Positions 1,235-27,681 of a stretch of 29,965 bases of DNA are shown in pieces; the first letter of the stretch is position 1; each line of letters starts with the position of its first letter. Origin of the DNA: a virus; the IMG/VR virus record IMGVR_UViG_3300040801_001809, positions 1 to 29,965 of that record, one strand, 5' to 3'. A program made the translations under genes and the position numbers. Below the pieces are notes generated by a model, which was given only the letters and a program-made list of their open reading frames with translations, did not search any database and had not been told where the DNA came from.

Positions 1235-1259
1235 GCCAACTTTTTAGGGGAGTATGGAT

Positions 1260-1907
1260 ATGGAAGAAATGGACGAGAACATAAATGACGGAGTTCGTAA
1301 TCGTAAGCGTGGAAAAGGAAAAATCAAAATCACAAAACGCCAACATGTAAATAATAAAGAATTGGTGCAAGAGCTTATTGATTTTAAAGCCACTATCGAA
1401 AAACAACGTGAACAAAAAGATAAAGAAGTATTCAAGATTTTAGAAGAAAAGCGTAAGATCGAAGATGAATTAGAAAGATTAAATAATCTTAAGCGTCCAT
1501 CTAAAAAGAAGATAGAACAATTTGAAATTGAGCTTACTAAAATCAATAAAAAGCTAGAGGCTCGCCAAGCTAAAGAATGTTGTGGACAAGCTTCAGAAAG
1601 ATTGGGAGAGATCTTCATAGATCTCGTTGAAAACTATGCTACCAAATCTAATTTCTCAGGATATACTTACCTTGAAGAAATGAAATCTCGTGCTATTTTC
1701 TTCTTATTACGCTATAGCCCATCATTTAATCCTGAAAAGAGTAAAAACGCATTCGCTTATTGTACACAAATCGTGAAAAACGCATTTATCCAAGTTATCA
1801 AAAAAGAAAAGAAGCGTTCAGAAGCCAAGAAGCAATTTGTAGAAGATTATTATAGAAATAAAGACTTTACCAGAAAAGACGACGATCTATTCTTTGGAAA
1901 TACATGA
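1260..1907 (+). CDS. 55: Late-transcription sigma factor, gp55-like
   Basis: 215 residues from ATG 1260, preferred over ATG 1254 because GGGGAG (1247-1252) is then 7 bases upstream. T4 gp55 is a minimal sigma factor that directs host RNA polymerase to TATAAATA late promoters with the sliding clamp and gp33. Recognisable blocks: VNNKELVQ near the N-terminus, then NFSGYTYLEEM, and FNPEKSKNAFAYCTQIVKNAF followed by KKEKKRSEAKK, all close to T4 gp55. Between them lies a Lys/Glu-rich coiled-coil insertion (about residues 45-110) that T4 gp55 lacks, making this protein longer than the 185-residue T4 version. It sits directly upstream of gp47/gp46, with 51 bases between. Confidence 0.88.
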   Translation: MEEMDENINDGVRNRKRGKGKIKITKRQHVNNKELVQELIDFKATIEKQREQKDKEVFKILEEKRKIEDELERLNNLKRPSKKKIEQFEIELTKINKKLEARQAKECCGQASERLGEIFIDLVENYATKSNFSGYTYLEEMKSRAIFFLLRYSPSFNPEKSKNAFAYCTQIVKNAFIQVIKKEKKRSEAKKQFVEDYYRNKDFTRKDDDLFFGNT

Positions 1908-1936
1908 TAGACTATATCCCCTATTCGTGTTATAAT
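1908..1936 (+). promoter_or_regulatory. sigma70-like promoter for gp47/gp46
   Basis: TAGACT (1908-1913), 17-base spacer, TATAAT (1931-1936) with an extended -10 TGT (1928-1930). The predicted start of RNA, near 1943, falls just before the right arm of the inverted repeat at 1916-1951. Confidence 0.6.
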
Positions 1937-1951
1937 ATACGTCTAGGGGAT
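1916..1951. repeat. 8-bp inverted repeat around the gp47 promoter and SD
   Basis: ATCCCCTA (1916-1923) and TAGGGGAT (1944-1951) are perfect reverse complements with a 20-base spacer holding the -10 element. The right arm contains the AGGGGA Shine-Dalgarno of gp47. RNA started at the local promoter lacks the left arm; RNA read through from gp55 has both and could hide the SD. It could equally be a DNA operator. Confidence 0.65.
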
Positions 1952-1958
1952 TATCTAC

Positions 1959-3053
1959 ATGAAACTGTTATTAATTAGCGACATACATTTTGGTGTTAGA
2001 AAGAATTCTGAAACATACCTAAACATCATGGAAAATTTCTTCTACAAGTTGGTGTCGTCAACTGTAGAAAAAGAAGACATTGATCAATTATGGATTCTTG
2101 GTGATCTGTTTCATGATCGCCATTTGATCAATTCACATATTAAAAATGCAGTGTTTAGAGTGTTTGACTTTTTACTTGAAAAACACCCACACTTAATAAT
2201 TAACGTACTTATCGGAAACCACGATATATATTACAAAAATAGTCTTTCTGAAACATCTCTCAGAATGTTCTTCGAATATCATCCACGATTAAAGATAGTT
2301 AAATCATTTGAAGAACATGACCTTGATGGTTGTAAGACAGCAGTATTTCCATGGCTTTGTGAAAATAGCCTTGAACATGAACAATTTATGGCAATCTACA
2401 ATGAATATGAAGAAACTGGTATAAAGCAATACGATTTATGCCTTGGTCACTTTGAAGTTCATGGATTTGAAGTTGTTCGTGGGGTTAATTTTGAAGGGAA
2501 TATTAAAACAAGCCATTTCGAAGCATTCAAAGATGTATTCTCTGGTCACTTCCACCTAAGACAGAAGAAAGGAAATCTTCAGTATCTTGGATGTCCATAT
2601 GAAATGGATTGGGGCGATTATGGTGATAAGAAAGGTTTGACTATTTATGATACTGATACAAGAAAAGTCAAATTCATTCATAATAAAATGAGTCCTCGAC
2701 ATGTTAAACTCCATGTATCAAAAATCAAAGATGATGTCAAATTACTTGGTCTAGCAAAAAATGCATGGGTCAAATTCTTTATTGATGAGCATATTAAAGA
2801 TGATAAACGCATTGAATATGAAACCATACTTGAGTCATATAACCCAATCTCATATGCTGTTATTGATGAAGTAGAAGGTACTGAGATTGAAGATGATGAT
2901 ATTGACATCGATTCTGAATTCGAAGGTAATGAACTTAATTATATGAATGAGTATATGGAACAATTGGATAATAACGATCCAGATTATACTGACAATGATC
3001 TTAAGCTCTATGCTCATGAACTATATCAGAGAAGTTTGAAGGAGAATGATTAG
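1959..3053 (+). CDS. 47: Recombination nuclease subunit gp47 (SbcD/Mre11-like)
   Basis: 364 residues; the calcineurin-like phosphoesterase subunit that with gp46 resects DNA ends to start recombination-dependent replication. Metal-site motifs appear in order: SDIHFG (D8, H10), GDLFHDR, IGNHD, LGHFEVHG and FSGHFHLR. It is longer than T4 gp47 (339) because of an acidic C-terminal region (EIEDDDIDIDSEF and onward). The ATG follows AGGGGA by 9 bases. Its stop overlaps the GTG start of gp46 (TAGTG), so the two subunits are translationally coupled. Expression probably comes from the sigma70-like promoter at 1908-1936. Confidence 0.93.
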   Translation: MKLLLISDIHFGVRKNSETYLNIMENFFYKLVSSTVEKEDIDQLWILGDLFHDRHLINSHIKNAVFRVFDFLLEKHPHLIINVLIGNHDIYYKNSLSETSLRMFFEYHPRLKIVKSFEEHDLDGCKTAVFPWLCENSLEHEQFMAIYNEYEETGIKQYDLCLGHFEVHGFEVVRGVNFEGNIKTSHFEAFKDVFSGHFHLRQKKGNLQYLGCPYEMDWGDYGDKKGLTIYDTDTRKVKFIHNKMSPRHVKLHVSKIKDDVKLLGLAKNAWVKFFIDEHIKDDKRIEYETILESYNPISYAVIDEVEGTEIEDDDIDIDSEFEGNELNYMNEYMEQLDNNDPDYTDNDLKLYAHELYQRSLKEND

Positions 3054-4885
3054 TGAAATTGTTCATTAAAAGTGCAGAAATAAAAAACTTTCTTAGTGTT
3101 GGATCTCAACCAATAACAATCGAATACAAAAGTGGCATACATGCTGTCACTGGGCATGTTGTGGGACAACCAACAAATAACGGAGTAGGTAAATCTACAT
3201 TATTTGTCGATGCTGTTGTCTTTGCTTTCTTTGGTAAAAGTATTCGTGGACTCAACAAAGCCAAGATGATTAATAGTATCAATGATTGCGATTGTTATGT
3301 ACATCTTAGATTTGAAATCGATGGACATCCTTATCGTATTGAACGAGGTATTAAGCCTGACTATCTTCGATTAATAGACGAAGTTGAAGAAGAAGAAAAT
3401 AAGAACAAGAAAAAGAATGAAAAAGAAGATAAAGAAAAATCTGCTAAGAAATTAACTCAAAGCGATATTGATGAAAAGCTTGGTGGTATGTCTTTAGAGA
3501 GCTTCAAGAACATGATTACTTTGAATATTAATTATTCAACCCCATTCTTTAAAATGTCAGTAGGTCAAAAGAGAGATTTACTTGAAAACATTATGAATCT
3601 ATCTGTATTTGGAAGAATGTTTGAAAAAGTTAAAGAAGATTATAATGGTTTAAAACGAGATATTAAAGAATTAGAATCTGATATCAAACACATGCTTAAG
3701 TCATATACTGATCGCGTCAATACATTCAAAAAACTTGAAACTATGAAGAAAGAGTTTGAAGAATCTAAAGCTGAAGAGATTGAAGAATTCAATGCTAAGA
3801 TCTTGGAATTAGAGAATAAAAAGAAATCGATTTCTATTCCCGATAAAGATTTTGAATCTATCAGAGACAAAATTAATTCAAGATTACAATCAATAGCGTC
3901 TGAAATTTCAAAGAATGAACATATAGTCGATACCAACGATTCAAATATACGAAAAAATAATAAAAAGATTGAACGTATGAAAGAGAGTCCTGTATGTTCT
4001 GTATGTAACAACCCAACAGATTCAGAACATAGTGCTAAACATGAAGCCGAGATTAATGAAGAAAATGAAGGATATCAGACTGCCATTTCAGAAGCTGAAA
4101 ATAATTTAAAGACTCTTAAGGAAGAAAAAGATCAATTGCGAGAAAAGCTTACTAAAGCTAAAGAAGCAGTAGCTAAAGTCGAAAAGTTAAAATTAAACAA
4201 ACAAAAAATTGATAATTACTTGTCTTCATATAAAGAAAGACTAGAGAAAGCTCAGTCAAAAGAATTTGATATTGAAGTTATTGATAAAAACGAGTTGATT
4301 AAAGATAAGAAAGAACTTGAAGATAAGAAAGCTGAATACGCTGAAGTCAAAAAGAAGTTTAAGTTGGCAGATAGAATGAAGCAGATCCTTGGTGATGGCG
4401 GAATTAAAAACTATACTATTAGAAAGATCTTACCATATCTCAATAAGAAGATGAACCAACATCTCGCTATGCTCAATGCCAATTATACAATATCTTTTGA
4501 TTCCCAATTGAAAGAATTATTGAAATCTCGCAATCGTGATGAATTTACGTATGAAAACTTCTCAGGTGGTGAACAAAAGAGAATTGATATTGCTTGGATG
4601 TTTACAACTGTTAGTGTGGCAAAGATGCGTAATTCTGTTGATTGTAATCTTTTAGTTCTAGACGAAGTTCTTGATTCTTCAATGTGTTCTAATGGTATTG
4701 GAATGTTGATGAAGTATCTCAAAACAGAATTTAGACAAAATAATAGTGATCATTGCGTCTATATTATTACACATAAATCTGAAATTGGTGAAGATGACTT
4801 TGATTCTATCATTCGTCTTAAGAAAGAGAATGGTTTCACTAAGATCGATTCAATTGAAGAACTTGATCCAGTCATCCAAGTCTAA
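3053..4885 (+). CDS. 46: Recombination nuclease ATPase gp46 (SbcC/Rad50-like)
   Basis: 610 residues, GTG start overlapping the gp47 stop, with GGAG upstream. SMC-type ABC ATPase that partners gp47. Visible: N-terminal Walker A (NNGVGKSTLF, about residue 43-52), long coiled coils, a zinc hook with C315-x-x-C318 near the middle, the signature FSGGEQKRIDIAW and the Walker B LLVLDEVLD near the C-terminus. T4 gp46 is 560 residues; the extra length is largely a Glu/Lys-rich insert at about 107-140. It begins the same way as T4 gp46 (KNFLSVG versus KNIMSVG). Confidence 0.94.
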   Translation: MKLFIKSAEIKNFLSVGSQPITIEYKSGIHAVTGHVVGQPTNNGVGKSTLFVDAVVFAFFGKSIRGLNKAKMINSINDCDCYVHLRFEIDGHPYRIERGIKPDYLRLIDEVEEEENKNKKKNEKEDKEKSAKKLTQSDIDEKLGGMSLESFKNMITLNINYSTPFFKMSVGQKRDLLENIMNLSVFGRMFEKVKEDYNGLKRDIKELESDIKHMLKSYTDRVNTFKKLETMKKEFEESKAEEIEEFNAKILELENKKKSISIPDKDFESIRDKINSRLQSIASEISKNEHIVDTNDSNIRKNNKKIERMKESPVCSVCNNPTDSEHSAKHEAEINEENEGYQTAISEAENNLKTLKEEKDQLREKLTKAKEAVAKVEKLKLNKQKIDNYLSSYKERLEKAQSKEFDIEVIDKNELIKDKKELEDKKAEYAEVKKKFKLADRMKQILGDGGIKNYTIRKILPYLNKKMNQHLAMLNANYTISFDSQLKELLKSRNRDEFTYENFSGGEQKRIDIAWMFTTVSVAKMRNSVDCNLLVLDEVLDSSMCSNGIGMLMKYLKTEFRQNNSDHCVYIITHKSEIGEDDFDSIIRLKKENGFTKIDSIEELDPVIQV

Positions 4886-5213: not shown

Positions 5214-5941
5214 TGGAATTTGATTTTGAATCTAGCATCGATAAAAAGAAGCTTCAAGAATCTTTAAGTGAAGAAATTCTTAAAGAAGATGCAGATGGTC
5301 CTAAAGACAGAGTAAAAGATATTGTTAAATTTATTATTAAATCTTCAAAAGATAGAAAACTTGGTGGGACTGAACATGATACTCTATTTGTTTTAGACAC
5401 TGCTAAAGAAAACGCTGAATCTCTTTTACTAGAAAACAAAAACATCAATGTATGGATCGAAGCAGTTCAAAACGACCAAGTTGTAAACAAGTATTTGTTT
5501 GAAAACTTTGGATGGTCTGCAATGTCCGGAAATCGTGCCATTAATAAAGGTCATGCAACTTATTTGGCAGAAGAGTTGAACTACTCTGAAGATCATCAGA
5601 CTATGCTTCAACGTTATTTGGATCACTGTGCAGAATTTCTTGGATTAGAAGAACTACCAGAGATACATCTCATTTATAAGAGGGATGAAGATATGACAAC
5701 TGGAGCGTATGATCCTCAAAATTATCAAATTCGTGCTCTGGCTGGGGGTCGTGCATTCGCTGATGTATTAAGAACTATTGCACACGAACTAGTACACCAT
5801 AAACAAAATCTCCAAAATAGATTAGTGGGAGAAATCCCAGTAGTAGGTGGAGAAATCGAAGATGAAGCTAATGCAGTTGGCGGACAAATGATAAAATCAT
5901 TTGGGACTCAAGAAGATAATGATCTTATTTACGAACTATAA
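5213..5941 (+). CDS. Late zincin metallopeptidase
   Basis: 242 residues with GGAGGTGAA just upstream. The C-terminal third has the zinc-protease signature HELVH (H191, E192, H195) in TIAHELVHHKQ, followed some 20 residues later by EIEDEA (E214/E216/E218), a candidate third zinc ligand as in gluzincins. The preceding YDPQNYQIRAL fits the strand before the active-site helix. The N-terminal 110 residues are not recognised and are rich in [L/I]xE triplets, the motif cut by the T4 prohead protease. Transcribed from the late promoter at 4889. Substrate unknown; a virion or injected protease is possible. Its 3' end overlaps the convergent adenosyltransferase gene by 6 bases with no terminator between them. 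Confidence 0.75.
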   Translation: MEFDFESSIDKKKLQESLSEEILKEDADGPKDRVKDIVKFIIKSSKDRKLGGTEHDTLFVLDTAKENAESLLLENKNINVWIEAVQNDQVVNKYLFENFGWSAMSGNRAINKGHATYLAEELNYSEDHQTMLQRYLDHCAEFLGLEELPEIHLIYKRDEDMTTGAYDPQNYQIRALAGGRAFADVLRTIAHELVHHKQNLQNRLVGEIPVVGGEIEDEANAVGGQMIKSFGTQEDNDLIYEL

Positions 5942-6487
5942 TACAGTCTGATCCCAAATTTCATCATGCGTTACATATCTAGCAAGTGTAAACAATAAAT
6001 CTGAGCAACGATTCAAGAATATTAAACAATTCTCATTGAATTCTCCACACTCACTATATGTTATCCAACATGAGCGTTCTGCTCTTCTTGCTATAGATCT
6101 ACACAAATGCAATTCATGATTTGGTATGATAAAATTACCAAGAGCATCCAATTTATTATGGATTCTCTCTATACAATTCTCTATATGCTCTATGTGTGTT
6201 TCGTTTATTCTAAAATTGGTTTCACTATCCATAGGCGTAGCACAATCAGTCCCAGCTACAAATAACATGTGTTGTAACCAAGTTAAAACACGAATGCATT
6301 CATTCCTTTTAATTGAACAAGTGACTTTTATATTCTTTGAGGCTATACCTATTGAACTATTAAGCTCATCAATATCACCGATAGCTTGAACGCGAATAGA
6401 TGTCTTTTTGTCTTTTGTACAATCTGCAAGCATTGTACACCCTTTGTCTCCATATTTGGTGAATGGTAACGGTGAATTATTTGCCAT
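5936..6487 (-). CDS. pduO: Cob(I)alamin adenosyltransferase, PduO type
   Basis: 183 residues from ATG 6487 (GAGGAG about 10 bases upstream; a longer form would run back into the release-factor gene). PduO/MMAB-type enzymes transfer adenosyl from ATP to cob(I)alamin, giving adenosylcobalamin. ATP-site motif TKYGDKGCTML (10-20), then IGDIDELNSSIG (36-47), RSIARRAER (130-138) and FLNRCSDLLFTLAR (157-170) are characteristic. The start lies one base after the release-factor stop (TGA-T-ATG), so it is co-translated in the RNR operon. The obvious role is to make the cofactor used by the class II RNR encoded upstream. Confidence 0.9.
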   Translation of the reverse strand: MANNSPLPFTKYGDKGCTMLADCTKDKKTSIRVQAIGDIDELNSSIGIASKNIKVTCSIKRNECIRVLTWLQHMLFVAGTDCATPMDSETNFRINETHIEHIENCIERIHNKLDALGNFIIPNHELHLCRSIARRAERSCWITYSECGEFNENCLIFLNRCSDLLFTLARYVTHDEIWDQTVL

Positions 6488-6488
6488 A

Positions 6489-7158
6489 TCAATATAACTC
6501 CTCAATATATCCTTTAAAATACAATTTAAGTGGAATTGACTTTCCATTTAAATGATTAACAACCTGACTATTTTGTTCTTGAACAGTTCTAATCTTATCA
6601 CCACGTAGACCGGTTCCAACTTGTTCTTTTCTGATAGCAGATCGAATATCATGTTGTTCAGATTCTTTAGATTTCTTAATCTTTTCTATTAAACGTTGTA
6701 ACGCAATGTCTTTATTTGCGTTTTGACAACGTTCGTCTTCACTTTGAGCAGTAATTCCTGTTTCGTAATGTGTCAACTCAACTGCACTCTCTACTTTATT
6801 TCTATGTTGACCACCTTTCCCAGATGCCTTATACGTTCTCATTCCATATTCCCATGGTTTTAAATCAACTTCAATCTTTTCTTTGTGGTCAAGAACTGCA
6901 CCAGTAACAGATGAAGTATGAACTCTTCCTTTCTTTTCTGTAGGAGGAACTCTTTGCCATCTATGACCCCCAGCTTCACTTAGAAATACGTCAGATTTCT
7001 TTCCATGAACTTCAAATGAAATGAATCCAGGCAACTCTTTTACGAGTTTAACCTCAAAGACACTCCTTGGCAGCAAACTTGCTGTAAATATTGAATAACT
7101 TTTCTACTAAGTCTTTGGCATCTCTGCCACCTTCACCTTGTCTTATTTCTACAATCAT
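6489..7158 (-). CDS. Short class I peptide release factor, made by +1 frameshift
   Basis: Two frames joined by a +1 shift give about 222 residues. Frame one starts at ATG 7158 (GAGGAG 7 bases upstream) and encodes MIVEIRQGEGGRDA up to a CTT codon (residue 34) followed by TGA at 7056-7054. Skipping one base continues at GAG 7055 through GGHRWQRVPPTEKKGRVHTSS to the catalytic GGQ (about 115-117). The joined protein matches release-factor domains 2-4 without a gap, but lacks N-terminal domain 1, as PrfH-type factors do. The recognition tripeptide is PPT (71-73), the PxT form of RF1 (UAA/UAG), not the SPF of RF2. It hydrolyses peptidyl-tRNA on ribosomes; whether it reads stop codons or rescues stalled ribosomes is open. 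It sits between RNR and the adenosyltransferase. Confidence 0.85.
7054..7068 (-). promoter_or_regulatory. Programmed +1 frameshift site, prfB type
   Basis: On the minus strand: AAGGAG (7068-7063), TGT, then CTT TGA G. This reproduces the bacterial prfB arrangement (SD-like AGGGGG, three bases, CUU UGA) including the spacing. It lies exactly where the release-factor frame must change. Confidence 0.88.
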
Positions 7159-16039: not shown

Positions 16040-16047
16040 TATAAATA
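16040..16047 (+). promoter_or_regulatory. T4-type late promoter for the 16116-20227 operon
   Basis: Exact TATAAATA, 69 bases before the ATG at 16116. It lies inside the leader of the oppositely directed uvsY transcript. Confidence 0.7.
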
Positions 16048-18317: not shown

Positions 18318-18836
18318 ATGAAAGTTGTCGGTATTGACCCTGGAATTAGTGGTGGATTAGCAGTTTGCGAAGATGGCAAGATCATTGGTGCCAGTGCCAT
18401 GCCTGCACATAAAGTTACCCCTGTAAAAAAGTCATATAATTTTGTAAATTTTGATTTGGTGTCGAAATTCTTAAAAGCAAACGAACCAGATGCAGTATAC
18501 ATTGAACTCGTTGGTGCTCGCCCAGGTCAAGGTGTAACATCAATGTATAATTTTGGGTTTTCTACTGGTGGTATCCATGGAGTGTGTTCAGCATTATCTA
18601 TCCCTCTCTATACAGTACCCCCACAAGAATGGAAGAAGGTTGTATTTGGATCACGAAAAGGTGACAAAGAAGATGCTATTAAATTTTGCCAAACCAACTG
18701 CCCAGATATTTCATTAAAAGCGACCAAGAGAAGCAAAAAAGATTCAGATGGGATTGCTGATGCTATATGCATTTCAATATATGGGATGCGACAAGCGTTG
18801 ATTAATATAAATAATGACAGCGATGGAGAAAAGTAA
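18318..18836 (+). CDS. ruvC: RuvC-like Holliday junction resolvase
   Basis: 172 residues with the RNase H-fold RuvC arrangement: VVGIDPGISGG (D7), a second acidic strand VYIELVGA (E63) and the C-terminal pair in KDSDGIADAICISIYG (D144, D148). GGIHGVCSALSIPLYTVPPQEWKK is typical of phage RuvC-like proteins. In T4 the resolvase is the unrelated endonuclease VII (gp49), expressed late so that branched DNA can be packaged. The late-operon position suggests this protein fills the gp49 role. GGAG lies about 13 bases upstream. Confidence 0.87.
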   Translation: MKVVGIDPGISGGLAVCEDGKIIGASAMPAHKVTPVKKSYNFVNFDLVSKFLKANEPDAVYIELVGARPGQGVTSMYNFGFSTGGIHGVCSALSIPLYTVPPQEWKKVVFGSRKGDKEDAIKFCQTNCPDISLKATKRSKKDSDGIADAICISIYGMRQALININNDSDGEK

Positions 18837-20227
18837 TGAATAAGAAAGCTTCTTACCGTGGTCAACTATTCGAAGTTATAGATCAAGATGAAATATATGT
18901 AACCTTAGAAGGTTGGGGGTACAAGAAACGAGTCTTGAAAGATGATATTCTATTTGAAGAAGAACCAGAAGATGATCTTCCAGAAGAATATCCAGATCGT
19001 GAAATAGTCACAGATGCTCCTGAAGATACACTTCCAAATGAAATTCCAGATAGAAGTCTGAAACTGGATGAGATGGATGTTTTATCTCAAGTTGATCCTG
19101 CAACTGCTCAGAAAATTGCACAAAAACAATCGCAAAAATCTCAATTAAGAGACAAAGAAGCAAAGATTGACCAAGAAATCGCTCAAATGACTAAGATTGG
19201 AATGAAGAAAAAAGAAGCTGAACAGAAGAAACTGGATAAACAAAATAAAGGTCCTGGCATGATAAGTAAAGCAGGGTCAGCTATTAAATCAGGAATTAAA
19301 TCTGTTGGGCAAGCCATAGGTCTTGCTGAAGAACAAGGAGATGAAGACATGGAAAAGCGTACCACTATGGATGGAGACGAATGGGACAAGTATAAAGAAC
19401 AAGGAGTCGATGTTGACCCAGAATCCCATGCAGAAACTCAAGAAACCAATGATGATCGCATGAAGCTTGCTTTGCAAGGGCTTCGACGTACATTTAGACA
19501 GAAGCTCAATGAACTTGATGATCTTCTTGAGATGGCTGAAGAAGACGAAGAGATTCTAGCTGAAGATGGTGCTGTAGAAGAAGATGAAGTTCCTGAGAAC
19601 GCAGAAATCCATGTTGATCCTGATCGACCATCTGATGATGTAAATTATCGCAGCACTGATAACTATTATGATAACCTTGATGCTGAAGAAGATACTGACT
19701 TCGAACAAGTAAATGAAGAAGATCATGATGAAGAAGAGGATGACGCTGAACAGCTAGATGAAGAAGGTGCAGGAACTGCTTCTGTTGCTGGTCCGGGTGT
19801 TGCAGATGCTACTGTCAATCAAGCAATTAATGGTCAGCAAGGTGTTGCAGTTTATCCAGGAAGAATGGGTATTGGAATGCAAAGAAGAAAGATTGATGAA
19901 ACATTCTTCAAGTTGTCTGATGATGAAGTTGTATTAAAAGAAGCCCATGTTCCAACAATCAATCGTCACAGAGTAGCAGATAAAGTTGAAGAGCAATTAG
20001 ACCCAATGACTGAATCTGATTGTACTGGAGTCCAACGCCGTAAGGCAAGAATGGAATCTATTGGTAGATATGCAACTCTTCGTGAGTGTGCAATGTTTAT
20101 TGCAGAAAATAGATATGCATGTGGCGAAGGATACGTTCCAAGAGAGAAGAAGCTTGAAGCTGCAACTGTTTTGGAAATGATGAAAAAGAAAAACTCTAAA
20201 TTAATGCGTGAAATTAGAAAAGCTTGA
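18836..20227 (+). CDS. Acidic late protein carrying a gp23 N-arm-like segment
   Basis: 463 residues. N-terminal 45 residues form a small beta-like domain (YRGQLFEVIDQDEIYVTLEG). Then comes a low-complexity, strongly acidic region with a Lys/Gln coiled coil (about 95-140). At 307-346 is a segment that begins with an LDE cleavage-like triplet (307-309) and continues GTASVAGPGVADATVNQAI and NGQQGVAVY, almost the same as the start of mature gp23 in this window. The last 110 residues are basic and helical with several Cys. Family not recognised. Late position, acidity and the gp23-like piece suggest a head or core protein processed by gp21. TAATG overlap with RuvC; the rnh promoter overlaps its stop. 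Confidence 0.65.
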   Translation: MNKKASYRGQLFEVIDQDEIYVTLEGWGYKKRVLKDDILFEEEPEDDLPEEYPDREIVTDAPEDTLPNEIPDRSLKLDEMDVLSQVDPATAQKIAQKQSQKSQLRDKEAKIDQEIAQMTKIGMKKKEAEQKKLDKQNKGPGMISKAGSAIKSGIKSVGQAIGLAEEQGDEDMEKRTTMDGDEWDKYKEQGVDVDPESHAETQETNDDRMKLALQGLRRTFRQKLNELDDLLEMAEEDEEILAEDGAVEEDEVPENAEIHVDPDRPSDDVNYRSTDNYYDNLDAEEDTDFEQVNEEDHDEEEDDAEQLDEEGAGTASVAGPGVADATVNQAINGQQGVAVYPGRMGIGMQRRKIDETFFKLSDDEVVLKEAHVPTINRHRVADKVEEQLDPMTESDCTGVQRRKARMESIGRYATLRECAMFIAENRYACGEGYVPREKKLEAATVLEMMKKKNSKLMREIRKA

Positions 20228-20251
20228 TAGAACACGATCTTGTGGTATAAT
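20224..20251 (+). promoter_or_regulatory. sigma70-like promoter of rnh
   Basis: TTGATA (20224-20229), 16-base spacer, TGG-TATAAT (20246-20251). It overlaps the stop codon of the preceding gene. RNA should start near 20258. Confidence 0.7.
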
Positions 20252-20276
20252 ATGCTCTAAATTGGAGTATATTATA
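20246..20276. repeat. 12-bp inverted repeat joining rnh promoter and start
   Basis: TATAATATGCTC (20246-20257) pairs with GAGTATATTATA (20265-20276), one G-U, 7-base loop. The left arm is the -10 element; the right arm and adjacent loop base hold the GGAG Shine-Dalgarno (20264-20267) and reach the first base of the rnh ATG. Confidence 0.75.
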
Positions 20277-21313
20277 TGAAGACGCTATTAATTGACTATA
20301 ATCACATGTGCTACAGAAGTTTCTTTGCATGCCGCAGAGACATCGAAGATGTTGGCTGGGGATACTTTAAGCATGTTATGTACAATTCTATTTTCTCATT
20401 TTGCCATCGCTTTGAGCCAGATCAAGTAATTGTCGCGGCTGATAGCAAACAAAATTGGCGTAGACAAGTCTATCCAGAATATAAGAGGAATCGTAAAGAA
20501 AGAAGAGATGCCCAAGATGATGTAGACTGGGAAGGTCTATATAATGCAATGGATGAGCTTCTTAAAGAGATGAAAGTCTACTTCCCATTCATGGTTTTGA
20601 GAATTCAATATATGGAAGCTGATGACATTATTGGTGCTTATGTTCGTAGCCATCCAGACGAAAAATGCACTGCTATTACTTCTGATGGTGACTATCTTCA
20701 ATTGTTAAGATATAAAAATGTTCAAGTATTTGATCCAATGAAGAATAAATTCATGAAAACTGATGATCCTCTTAAAGCACTCAAAGTCAAAATTTTGCAT
20801 GGGGATACTGGAGACAATATTCCAAATATTATTAAGCGTCAAATGAAAGATCCTGCCGTCAAAAAACGTCTTGGTGAAAAGACTGCTGAAAAATATGTAG
20901 AAGATAATTCTAAGTTAAAAGCATTATTTGAAGATAAAACTATCTTAACTGAGCAAGTTCTCAATGAAGATGGTGAGCCAGAATTAGATGATGAAGGTAA
21001 TGAAAAGATTAACACAGTTTTAATTACTGAAAATGTTGATGGTGAAGAAAAGGAAGTTCCTTTAACTCTTGGTAAGCAAGCTAAAATTGGATATAAGAGA
21101 AATTCTATACTTATTGATCTTCAACATATTCCAGACAAACTTATTCAGATAATGGACAGAACCATTGATGAATATATTTTTGCAGACGGAAAAGACATTT
21201 TTCAATATTTCGCAAAAAATAAATTTAGAGAATTTGTGCATAAGATGGATTATGTTGAAAAAGCTATAAAGCCATTGGTTGAATATAATCAGCAGAGAGA
21301 AGTGTTTGGATGA
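20276..21313 (+). CDS. rnh: T4-type RNase H (5'-3' exonuclease, FEN family)
   Basis: 345 residues (T4 rnh 305). Removes lagging-strand primers. Metal-site motifs: LLIDYNH (D7), WRRQVYPEYKRNRKE, DWEGLYNAMDELLKEMKVY, YMEADDIIGAYV, ITSDGDYLQL and ILHGDTGDNIPNI, all matching T4 RNase H in order. An insert of about 40 residues (TEQVLNEDGEPELDDEGNEK) near 225-260 explains the extra length. Own sigma70-like promoter with an inverted repeat over the start. The following gene overlaps by four bases (ATGA). Confidence 0.92.
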   Translation: MKTLLIDYNHMCYRSFFACRRDIEDVGWGYFKHVMYNSIFSFCHRFEPDQVIVAADSKQNWRRQVYPEYKRNRKERRDAQDDVDWEGLYNAMDELLKEMKVYFPFMVLRIQYMEADDIIGAYVRSHPDEKCTAITSDGDYLQLLRYKNVQVFDPMKNKFMKTDDPLKALKVKILHGDTGDNIPNIIKRQMKDPAVKKRLGEKTAEKYVEDNSKLKALFEDKTILTEQVLNEDGEPELDDEGNEKINTVLITENVDGEEKEVPLTLGKQAKIGYKRNSILIDLQHIPDKLIQIMDRTIDEYIFADGKDIFQYFAKNKFREFVHKMDYVEKAIKPLVEYNQQREVFG

Positions 21314-26172: not shown

Positions 26173-27534
26173 ATGAAAATGACTACAGAAATGTTACTTG
26201 AAAAGTGGGATCCTATGGTCGCACACATCAAGTCAGAAAGAAAGCAGGTTCTTACTGCAAAACTTCTTGAGAACGAAGAGAAGTGGTTTAACAAGCAGAT
26301 TCTAACTGAGTCTGGTACTGCTGCTGAAGCAGGTGTTGGTTGTGCAGATGGTACTGTCAACCAGGCAATTCACGCACAACAGGGTATTGCTAAGTACATG
26401 GGTATCGCAATGCCACTCGTTGCTCGTGTTTTCCCAGAGCTTATCACTAACGATCTTGTTGGTGTTCAGCCAATGTTCACTCCAGTTGGTCTAGCATACG
26501 CATTGCGTTATCGCTACCAGAGTGGTGACGTTGCTGGTGTCGAAGCTGCATACAACACTGTTTACCAACAGTACTCTGGTTCTGTCGATGCATCTGCTGC
26601 TGACATCACTGGTAACGCAGCAATCGCTCAGTACGGTAACCATGAGACTATTGGTACTGGTGGTGCAGTTGCTGACATCACTGGTAATGGTCTTACTCAG
26701 GGTGCTAATGGCTACCCAACAGCTTATGGTGAGCGTCTCGACACTCTCAATAAGGTCTGTGGTGGCGAAACTGATAGCATTCGTGAAATGGGTCTTACTA
26801 TTGAGAAGAAAGAGATCACTGCTCACACTCGTAAGCTCAAGGCTCGTTGGACTCTTGAAGCTCAGCAAGACTTGGCAAACATGCACAATGTTGACGTTGA
26901 AGAAGAGTTGACTGACCTTCTTGCATACGAGATCGCAGCAGAAATCGATCTTGAAATCAAGAACAGAATCATCTACCGTGCAGTTCAGGGTGGTGTTCTT
27001 ACTTGGGACTATGGTACTGTTGGTGTTGCAAATGGTACTGCTGATGGTCGTTGGGAACAAGAGAAGTTCCGTACTCTCTACACTGTCTTCTTGAAGGCAT
27101 CAAACGAGATTGCAATCGCAACTCGTCGTGGAGCAGGTAACTTCATCATCGCTTCCCCAGGTGTTGTCGCTGCTGTCGAGTCTCTCGACAACTTCTTGAT
27201 CGCACCAGTTAGTGCAAGCATGAACACTGAAGTTAGTGGTGTAGCTAAGGTCGGTACTCTTGGTCGTTTCACTGTCTATCGTGACAGCTTTGCAGCAGAA
27301 GACTACGCAGTAGTTGGCTACAAGGGTCCAAAGGACAACGATGCTGGTATCGTTTACTGCCCATATGTTCCAGTTATGTTCAGCCGTACTACACAGGTTG
27401 AAAGCTTCCAGCCAGTTATTGGTGTCATGACTCGTTATGGCATCTGTGATAACTTGTTCGGTGCTGAGAACTACTATCGCTTCATCAAGATCGTCGGTCT
27501 ACAGAACTCCAGCTTGGCTGGTTCTCGTAACTGA
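26173..27534 (+). CDS. 23: Major capsid protein gp23
   Basis: 453 residues after GGGGAG. HK97-fold capsid protein; the N-terminal propeptide (MKMTTEMLLEKWDPM and on) should be cut by gp21 after LTE (L44-T45-E46), so the mature protein starts SGTAAEAGVG. T4-like blocks follow: ELITNDLVGVQPM, KAARW-type KLKARWTLEAQQDL, EIDLEIKNRII and DNLFGAENYYRFIKI. Codon choice differs from its neighbours (many GGT, CGT, AAC, CTC), giving higher GC, as expected of the most abundant phage protein. Followed by a strong terminator. Confidence 0.96.
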   Translation: MKMTTEMLLEKWDPMVAHIKSERKQVLTAKLLENEEKWFNKQILTESGTAAEAGVGCADGTVNQAIHAQQGIAKYMGIAMPLVARVFPELITNDLVGVQPMFTPVGLAYALRYRYQSGDVAGVEAAYNTVYQQYSGSVDASAADITGNAAIAQYGNHETIGTGGAVADITGNGLTQGANGYPTAYGERLDTLNKVCGGETDSIREMGLTIEKKEITAHTRKLKARWTLEAQQDLANMHNVDVEEELTDLLAYEIAAEIDLEIKNRIIYRAVQGGVLTWDYGTVGVANGTADGRWEQEKFRTLYTVFLKASNEIAIATRRGAGNFIIASPGVVAAVESLDNFLIAPVSASMNTEVSGVAKVGTLGRFTVYRDSFAAEDYAVVGYKGPKDNDAGIVYCPYVPVMFSRTTQVESFQPVIGVMTRYGICDNLFGAENYYRFIKIVGLQNSSLAGSRN

Positions 27535-27560
27535 TCTGACTTGATCAGATAGAAACCATA

Positions 27561-27594
27561 AAAAGTGGGGAAGTTTAACTTCCCCACTTTTTTT
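27561..27594 (+). terminator. Strong rho-independent terminator after gp23
   Basis: AAAAGTGGGGAAG (27561-27573) pairs with CTTCCCCACTTTT (27579-27591), 5-base loop, T-run to 27594. Confidence 0.95.
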
Positions 27595-27628: not shown

Positions 27629-27681
27629 AAGTTGAACTTTAAATACATTCACATCTCTGGATAGTGGAAAGGGAGCTACGA

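Follow-up and report, generated by a model that had tools for sequence, protein, structure and literature searches.

The analyzed window, a whole IMG/VR contig of 29,965 bases, contains a candidate cis-acting RNA lock at the start of the rnh gene. We propose, with a probability of roughly 0.7, that this lock ties the translation of rnh to its own sigma70-like promoter and silences late read-through RNA. The rnh gene (20276..21313, + strand) encodes a T4 RNase H-type 5'-3' exonuclease of 345 amino acids (PHROG 107, E 5e-44; Pfam PF02739, E 2e-22). In a tblastn search, its product matched the RNase H of T4-like phages. The PF02739 domain scored above the cut-off, whereas PF09293, the C domain of T4 RNase H, scored slightly under it (21.7 vs 25).

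The promoter of rnh comprises a -35 hexamer, TTGATA (20224..20229, + strand), which overlaps the upstream gene's TGA stop codon, and a -10 hexamer, TATAAT (20246..20251, + strand). With 11 of 12 consensus matches, a 16-nt spacer and an extended-TG element, this promoter (TTGATA-16-TATAAT) was the joint best among 76 promoter-like sites in 18 kb. An earlier note on this DNA described a 12-bp stem with one G-U pair, whose left arm is the -10 region and whose right arm covers the Shine-Dalgarno (SD) sequence and touches the ATG. The sequence and RNAfold bore out each part of this description. The left, antisense arm TATAATATGCTC (20246-20257, + strand) begins with the TATAAT hexamer, the loop is TAAATTG (20258-20264, + strand), and the right arm GAGTATATTATA (20265-20276, + strand) spans the SD GGAG (20264..20267, + strand) and the A of the ATG (20276-20278). 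The 12 pairs are contiguous, and RNAfold lengthened the stem to 15 pairs by adding a G-U at each end. The fold of the 31-mer was -12.8 kcal/mol (z -6.9), and none of 200 shuffles was as good. The whole 30-kb window contained three stems that were 12 bp or longer and had a loop of 10 nt or less; 30 shuffled windows contained a mean of 0.17 and a maximum of 1.

All opening and fold energies refer to isolated RNA at 37°C. The long RNA includes the promoter, and the short RNA begins at approximately 20258-20259, the start expected from the position of the -10 box, such that the left arm lies 5' of it. The predicted cost of opening the rnh start region was 14.9 kcal/mol in the long RNA and 3.1 kcal/mol in the short RNA (shuffles, 4.7±2.1; p 0.001). 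These energies agree with the proposal in the same note that the SD is hidden in the former and open in the latter. The note also stated that no terminator precedes rnh, and we found no intrinsic terminator (a G+C-rich stem plus a T tract) at 20246-20276 or between 20227 and 20276. The upstream gene ends at 20227, 19 nt 5' of the stem, and, thus, a terminating ribosome is not expected to reach the stem.

The surroundings of rnh are of the late type. The upstream gene (18836..20227) is on the same + strand, and no terminator separates it from rnh. The T4-type late promoter TATAAATA at 18806..18813 (+ strand) is the likely source of RNA entering rnh, and another copy at 16040..16047 (+ strand) belongs to the upstream operon. 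TATAAATA occurs nine times in the forward orientation in the window and never in the reverse, always 5' of + strand genes (control counts were 4 and 2). This placement is as expected of T4-type late promoters. A gene for a gp55-type late sigma factor (1254..1907, + strand; PHROG 234, E 3e-29) lies 5' of gp47 and has TATAAATA at 1227. The T4-type head genes encode a portal protein (22328), a head maturation protease (24184) and a gp23-type capsid protein (26173); UvsW helicase and gp46/gp47 are also encoded. The rnh gene sits downstream of late-type promoters and among head genes. By portal protein, the nearest known phages are only approximately 31-34% identical, and a near-identity DNA search of phage records with the window sequence returned no match. 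We considered the rnh -10 box as a late promoter. This candidate was ruled out because the box is unlike TATAAATA and because a TTG-type -35 recurs at a distance of approximately 16 nt in nearly all relatives.

From these features, we infer an RNA start, the timing of promoter use, late read-through and a translational effect as follows. RNA from the rnh promoter would start at approximately 20258-20259, lack the left arm and leave the SD and AUG open. RNA reading in from the late operon would carry the -10 box as RNA, fold over the SD and AUG and keep ribosomes off. Late read-through would then yield little RNase H, and RNA initiated at the promoter, probably early or middle in infection, would be translated. 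Of the explanations considered, this one, which the earlier note had put forward, has the best support. Its design principle would be simple: since every longer RNA bears the antisense arm, the promoter would label the RNA that it starts as translatable.

Viral contigs were searched for relatives with capsid and RNase H queries, and 27 distinct rnh upstream regions, including that of the window, were obtained. Searches of the viral contigs with the rnh protein alone or the upstream ORF alone returned no relatives; the capsid protein search opened the family. The RNase H proteins are mostly 30-50% identical. Since upstream regions of such proteins do not align, we used tests based on stems, donor start regions and opening energy instead of alignment covariation. 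A sigma70-like promoter was present in nearly all 27, with a TTG-type -35, usually a 16-nt spacer, and a -10 box that ends 6-35 nt upstream of the gene start. The -35 box of L088, the closest relative (RNase H 82% identical), is TTGAAC and is likewise built on the upstream stop codon. The -10 box ends 17-35 nt before the ATG in 18 of the 27, and these have an SD. In the other nine, without a clear SD, it ends 6-7 nt before the ATG (L151, L024, L106, L136, L135, L112, L104, L101, which carries a weak GGA, and L100). These nine, about a third of the family, probably produce leaderless mRNA, judging from this spacing.

A gene ends 29-131 nt upstream of rnh in all 27 regions. Gene calling placed it on the strand of rnh in 23 regions and gave an ORF on the opposite strand in the other four (L031, L098, L134 and L100), which may be spurious antisense calls. 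TATAAATA was found further upstream in 24 of the 27. Read-through into rnh is plausible in this family because at least 23 of the 27 have the upstream gene in the orientation of rnh and a T4-type late promoter is usual.

The earlier note held that the lock would be contradicted if relatives with the same promoter had lost the pairing. Across the 27 relatives, the pairing was kept far above chance; the best stems between the -10 region and downstream sequence summed to 332, compared with 203±20 in dinucleotide shuffles (maximum 258 of 500), 212±26 with donor start regions (maximum 290) and 200 for mirror repeats. However, it was largely lost in L017, which has kept the promoter and encodes an RNase H 99.7% identical to those of L016 and L094; eight paired bases are reduced to approximately four, with no excess over shuffles. 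Other pairings are used in L138 and L088, and in the latter the arm has moved to TCTCCA/TGGAGA, right after the -10 box, with the SD still covered. Little or no pairing specific to read-through RNA was found in L105/L095 and L031.

Clear pairings of different sequence were found in L018 (CCATATAAT/ATTATATGG), L098 (TATAATAAA/TTTATTATA(TG)), L134 (TTATAATGGTC/GACCATTATGA), L019 (ATCATAGATAG/TTATCTATGAT), L030 (GACGTATAA/TTATATGTC) and L094 (TATAATTG/CAATTATA), as well as in L092, L137, L112, L104 and L024. That differing sequences achieve the pairing favours a folded RNA rather than an operator bound by a protein. The palindrome might otherwise be a DNA operator for a dimeric repressor that overlaps the -10 box; an inverted repeat across a -10 box is typical of operators, and the reverse strand of the rnh palindrome pairs too. 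However, no sequence is common to the relatives, their loops range from 3 nt to more than 20 nt, and complementarity rather than sequence has been kept, and we regard a DNA operator as very improbable.

The opening energies pointed in the same direction as the stems. The mean cost for the 18 SD-type leaders was 8.85 kcal/mol in the long RNA and 3.58 kcal/mol in the short RNA, with an excess over shuffled upstream sequence of z about 7; z ranged over 4.5-8.5 depending on the RNA start and flank chosen. When the -10 box was held fixed in all 27, the excess was smaller (z 3.7), which indicates that the AT-rich box itself is part of the signal. The partners of the start region were concentrated in the -10/discriminator region, with a peak from -4 to +15 relative to the -10 box, and were 2.7-3.4 times the null over 0..+11; this peak sits in the part that is mostly missing from RNA of the gene's own promoter. 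A chance or mutational origin, in which AT-rich -10 boxes and start regions pair by composition or through template switching, is compatible with this drop, and TATAAT and TATTATATG are nearly complementary unaided. However, the shuffle, donor and mirror controls were all exceeded, 212 control genes without a nearby promoter showed no opening excess (z -1.3), and the hairpin is associated with the absence of a terminator. We consider such an origin to be quite unlikely.

We also asked if pairing with the start is a general property of nearby promoters in these genomes. This idea was rejected because the excess for other sigma70-like genes was only weak (z 2.9; with the box kept, 1.4). Taken together, late-promoter genes had a clear excess (z 4.8), but it was differently placed. 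A head-region gene of approximately 590 amino acids (MPRPKP...), which retains a sigma70-like promoter within late DNA in most relatives, showed no pairing excess with its start (L088 12730, L089 9952, L090 10020, L102 9964, L109 10032 and L113 11411). Separately, strong hairpins confined to read-through RNA were noted at other sigma70-like genes, at L090 11838 (173 amino acids) and L099 11994, an example being TATAATATAACTT/GAGTTATATTATG over the start codon.

The hairpin varied with terminator context. An intrinsic terminator lies between the upstream gene and rnh in 16 of the 27 regions and is absent in 11, including the window. The hairpin excess was 4.33 kcal/mol without a terminator and 1.44 kcal/mol with one (one-sided Mann-Whitney p 0.005; p 0.0009 after the removal of near-duplicates), although terminator presence follows two clades and, thus, the data points are not independent of descent. 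The 11 regions without a terminator have a predicted hairpin in nine cases, of which L017 is the weakest, and a leaderless start in two (L151 and L024). A hairpin or leaderless start in 11 of 11 fits a need to stop the translation of rnh from upstream RNA. Three devices, used singly or in combination, seemingly serve the same end in the relatives: the hairpin, a closely preceding terminator, and a leaderless start, which would leave read-through RNA without an SD. In seven loci (L031, L098, L096, L097, L034, L136 and L135), we observed a fused terminator-promoter, in which the right arm of the upstream terminator is the rnh -35 box (TTGACC/TTGACT) and the T tract is the spacer.

The stem in read-through RNA might instead serve mainly to form or protect the 3' terminus of the late mRNA from the upstream gene, through RNase processing or by blocking an exonuclease, with the hiding of the SD as a by-product. 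A terminator occupies the same place in relatives, and either structure would end the late message. We find this role improbable, since the stem has no U tract and sits on the start region rather than anywhere in the gap, and since the family-wide signal is the cost of opening the start region.

The stem may also be a translational operator or thermosensor within the main rnh mRNA, bound by a phage protein and unrelated to read-through. In T4, autoregulation at the start region is frequent among replication genes (PMC3014915), as in the gp43 and gp32 operators, and the rnh stem is stable. However, the left arm lies 5' of the expected RNA start in most relatives, and leaderless relatives cannot carry the hairpin at all. 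Moreover, arms, loops and loop lengths vary between relatives, which leaves no fixed binding site, and the strength of the hairpin depends on the presence of a terminator. An operator or thermosensor is, in our view, unlikely.

The lock on read-through RNA may have a second example in the window. The gp47 gene (1959..3053, + strand) encodes an SbcD-like nuclease subunit (PHROG 100, E 1e-73) and has a TAGACT-17-TATAAT promoter (-35 TAGACT, 1908-1913; -10 TATAAT, 1931..1936; + strand). An 8-bp left arm, ATCCCCTA (1916..1923, + strand), lies in the promoter spacer, and the right arm TAGGGGAT (1944..1951, + strand) is the SD of gp47. The predicted opening cost was 19.2 kcal/mol in the long RNA and 1.6 kcal/mol in the short RNA (0 of 500 shuffles), and, on the basis of this fold, gp47 appears to have a lock similar to that of rnh. 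The closest gp47 relative, L210 (70% identical), has a different 15-bp stem, TTGATTTCTGATATA/TATATCAGGAGTCAA, which overlaps the -10 box and the SD; its opening cost was 18.1 kcal/mol long and 4.7 kcal/mol short, beating 500 of 500 shuffles. A comparable stem was present in L216, and no such stem was found by eye in the remaining gp47 relatives.

We tentatively extend the reading to a clade-wide rule, to which we give slightly less than even odds: sigma70-driven replication genes located within late operons, namely rnh and, in the closest relatives, gp47, would be locked in late read-through RNA. The lock would take the form of a hairpin with a promoter-encoded 5' arm, a terminator stem that doubles as the -35 box, or a leaderless start. 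If this rule is true, it represents a reversed, convergent counterpart of the hairpins of T4 late genes, and late transcription must not yield RNase H. The reversed case would be kept in logic rather than in sequence, with early replication functions barred from late RNA as actively as the opposite. This raises the question of why RNase H must not be made late.

In T4 and its relatives, hairpins silence read-through RNA of e, soc, 49, I-TevI/II/III, segB and Aeh1 mobE (PMC3014915, PMC2988022), as the earlier note had stated for e and soc. The effect of the hairpin is approximately 100-fold for e (PMC3014915, PMC2988022). A review reports that all genes with such T4-like read-through hairpins are late (PMC2988022), and this contrast agrees with the reversal that the note had proposed; in rnh, the direction appears to be opposite. 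In T4 e, soc and I-TevI, as predicted for rnh, the local promoter encodes the 5' arm, the long RNA hides the SD and AUG, and RNA started at the promoter does not; for rnh, the pairing of SD and AUG in the long RNA is a predicted fold, and the absence of the arm from the promoter's own RNA follows from the expected start. The T4 genes have the late promoter TATAAATA and their early or middle read-through is silenced, whereas rnh is a replication gene in a late operon with a sigma70-like promoter. Its local promoter is TTGATA-16-TATAATATG, the nine TATAAATA sites of the window are elsewhere, and its gene context is not that of a late gene in early or middle transcripts. Since its promoter differs from TATAAATA and it does not appear to be a late gene, we regard the rnh lock as a reversed variant rather than a member of the T4 class. 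The known T4-like read-through hairpins concern late genes only, and the putative rnh lock appears to be the reverse. A literature search for such a mechanism in rnh returned nothing.

The rnh gene of T4 itself (NC_000866, 149787-150704) encodes the same enzyme family and has a promoter-like TATAAT 29 nt before the ATG. It is divergent from gene 34, and, therefore, no same-strand late operon reads into it. Its fold was weak and non-significant (7.6 kcal/mol long, 4.2 kcal/mol short; p 0.07). The classic form of the lock seemingly occurs in the same phages. An HNH-type endonuclease gene at 4040 on the minus strand of L091 combines TATAAATA with a 20-bp hairpin that covers its start (27.0 kcal/mol long vs 3.2 kcal/mol short), and, by its sequence, looks like a classic T4 homing-endonuclease lock.

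The transposase genes of IS10 and IS50 have a cellular-type promoter near the gene start, and RNA from outside folds over the start. In IS200, a stem-loop occludes the ribosome binding site (PMC3196728). Protection from outside transcription is similar in these elements and in the proposed rnh lock. However, they encode transposases of mobile elements, their arms are the IS ends, and they have no phage time programme; the likeness to rnh is one of logic. The rnh product belongs to the RNase H family and is not an IS transposase.

Other features of the window were also noted. Residues 298-348 of the product of the upstream gene (18836-20227; GTASVAGPGVADATVNQAINGQQGVAVYPG) match the N-terminal region of the major capsid protein of relatives (tblastn E ~1e-8); they are also similar to the corresponding region in the capsid protein of the window itself (26173-27534). 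This segment is perhaps a shared prohead-targeting or protease segment. Between the capsid gene and the gene at 27664, a stem of 15 bp that has T tracts on each strand (27560-27592) resembles a bidirectional terminator. On the minus strand, a 12-bp stem at 6524-6553 (ATTTAAATGGAA/TTCCACTTAAAT) contains the ATG of gene 5936-6547, also on the minus strand, within that gene's own coding start. This gene overlaps an upstream release-factor-like gene, and, thus, translational coupling may open its stem.
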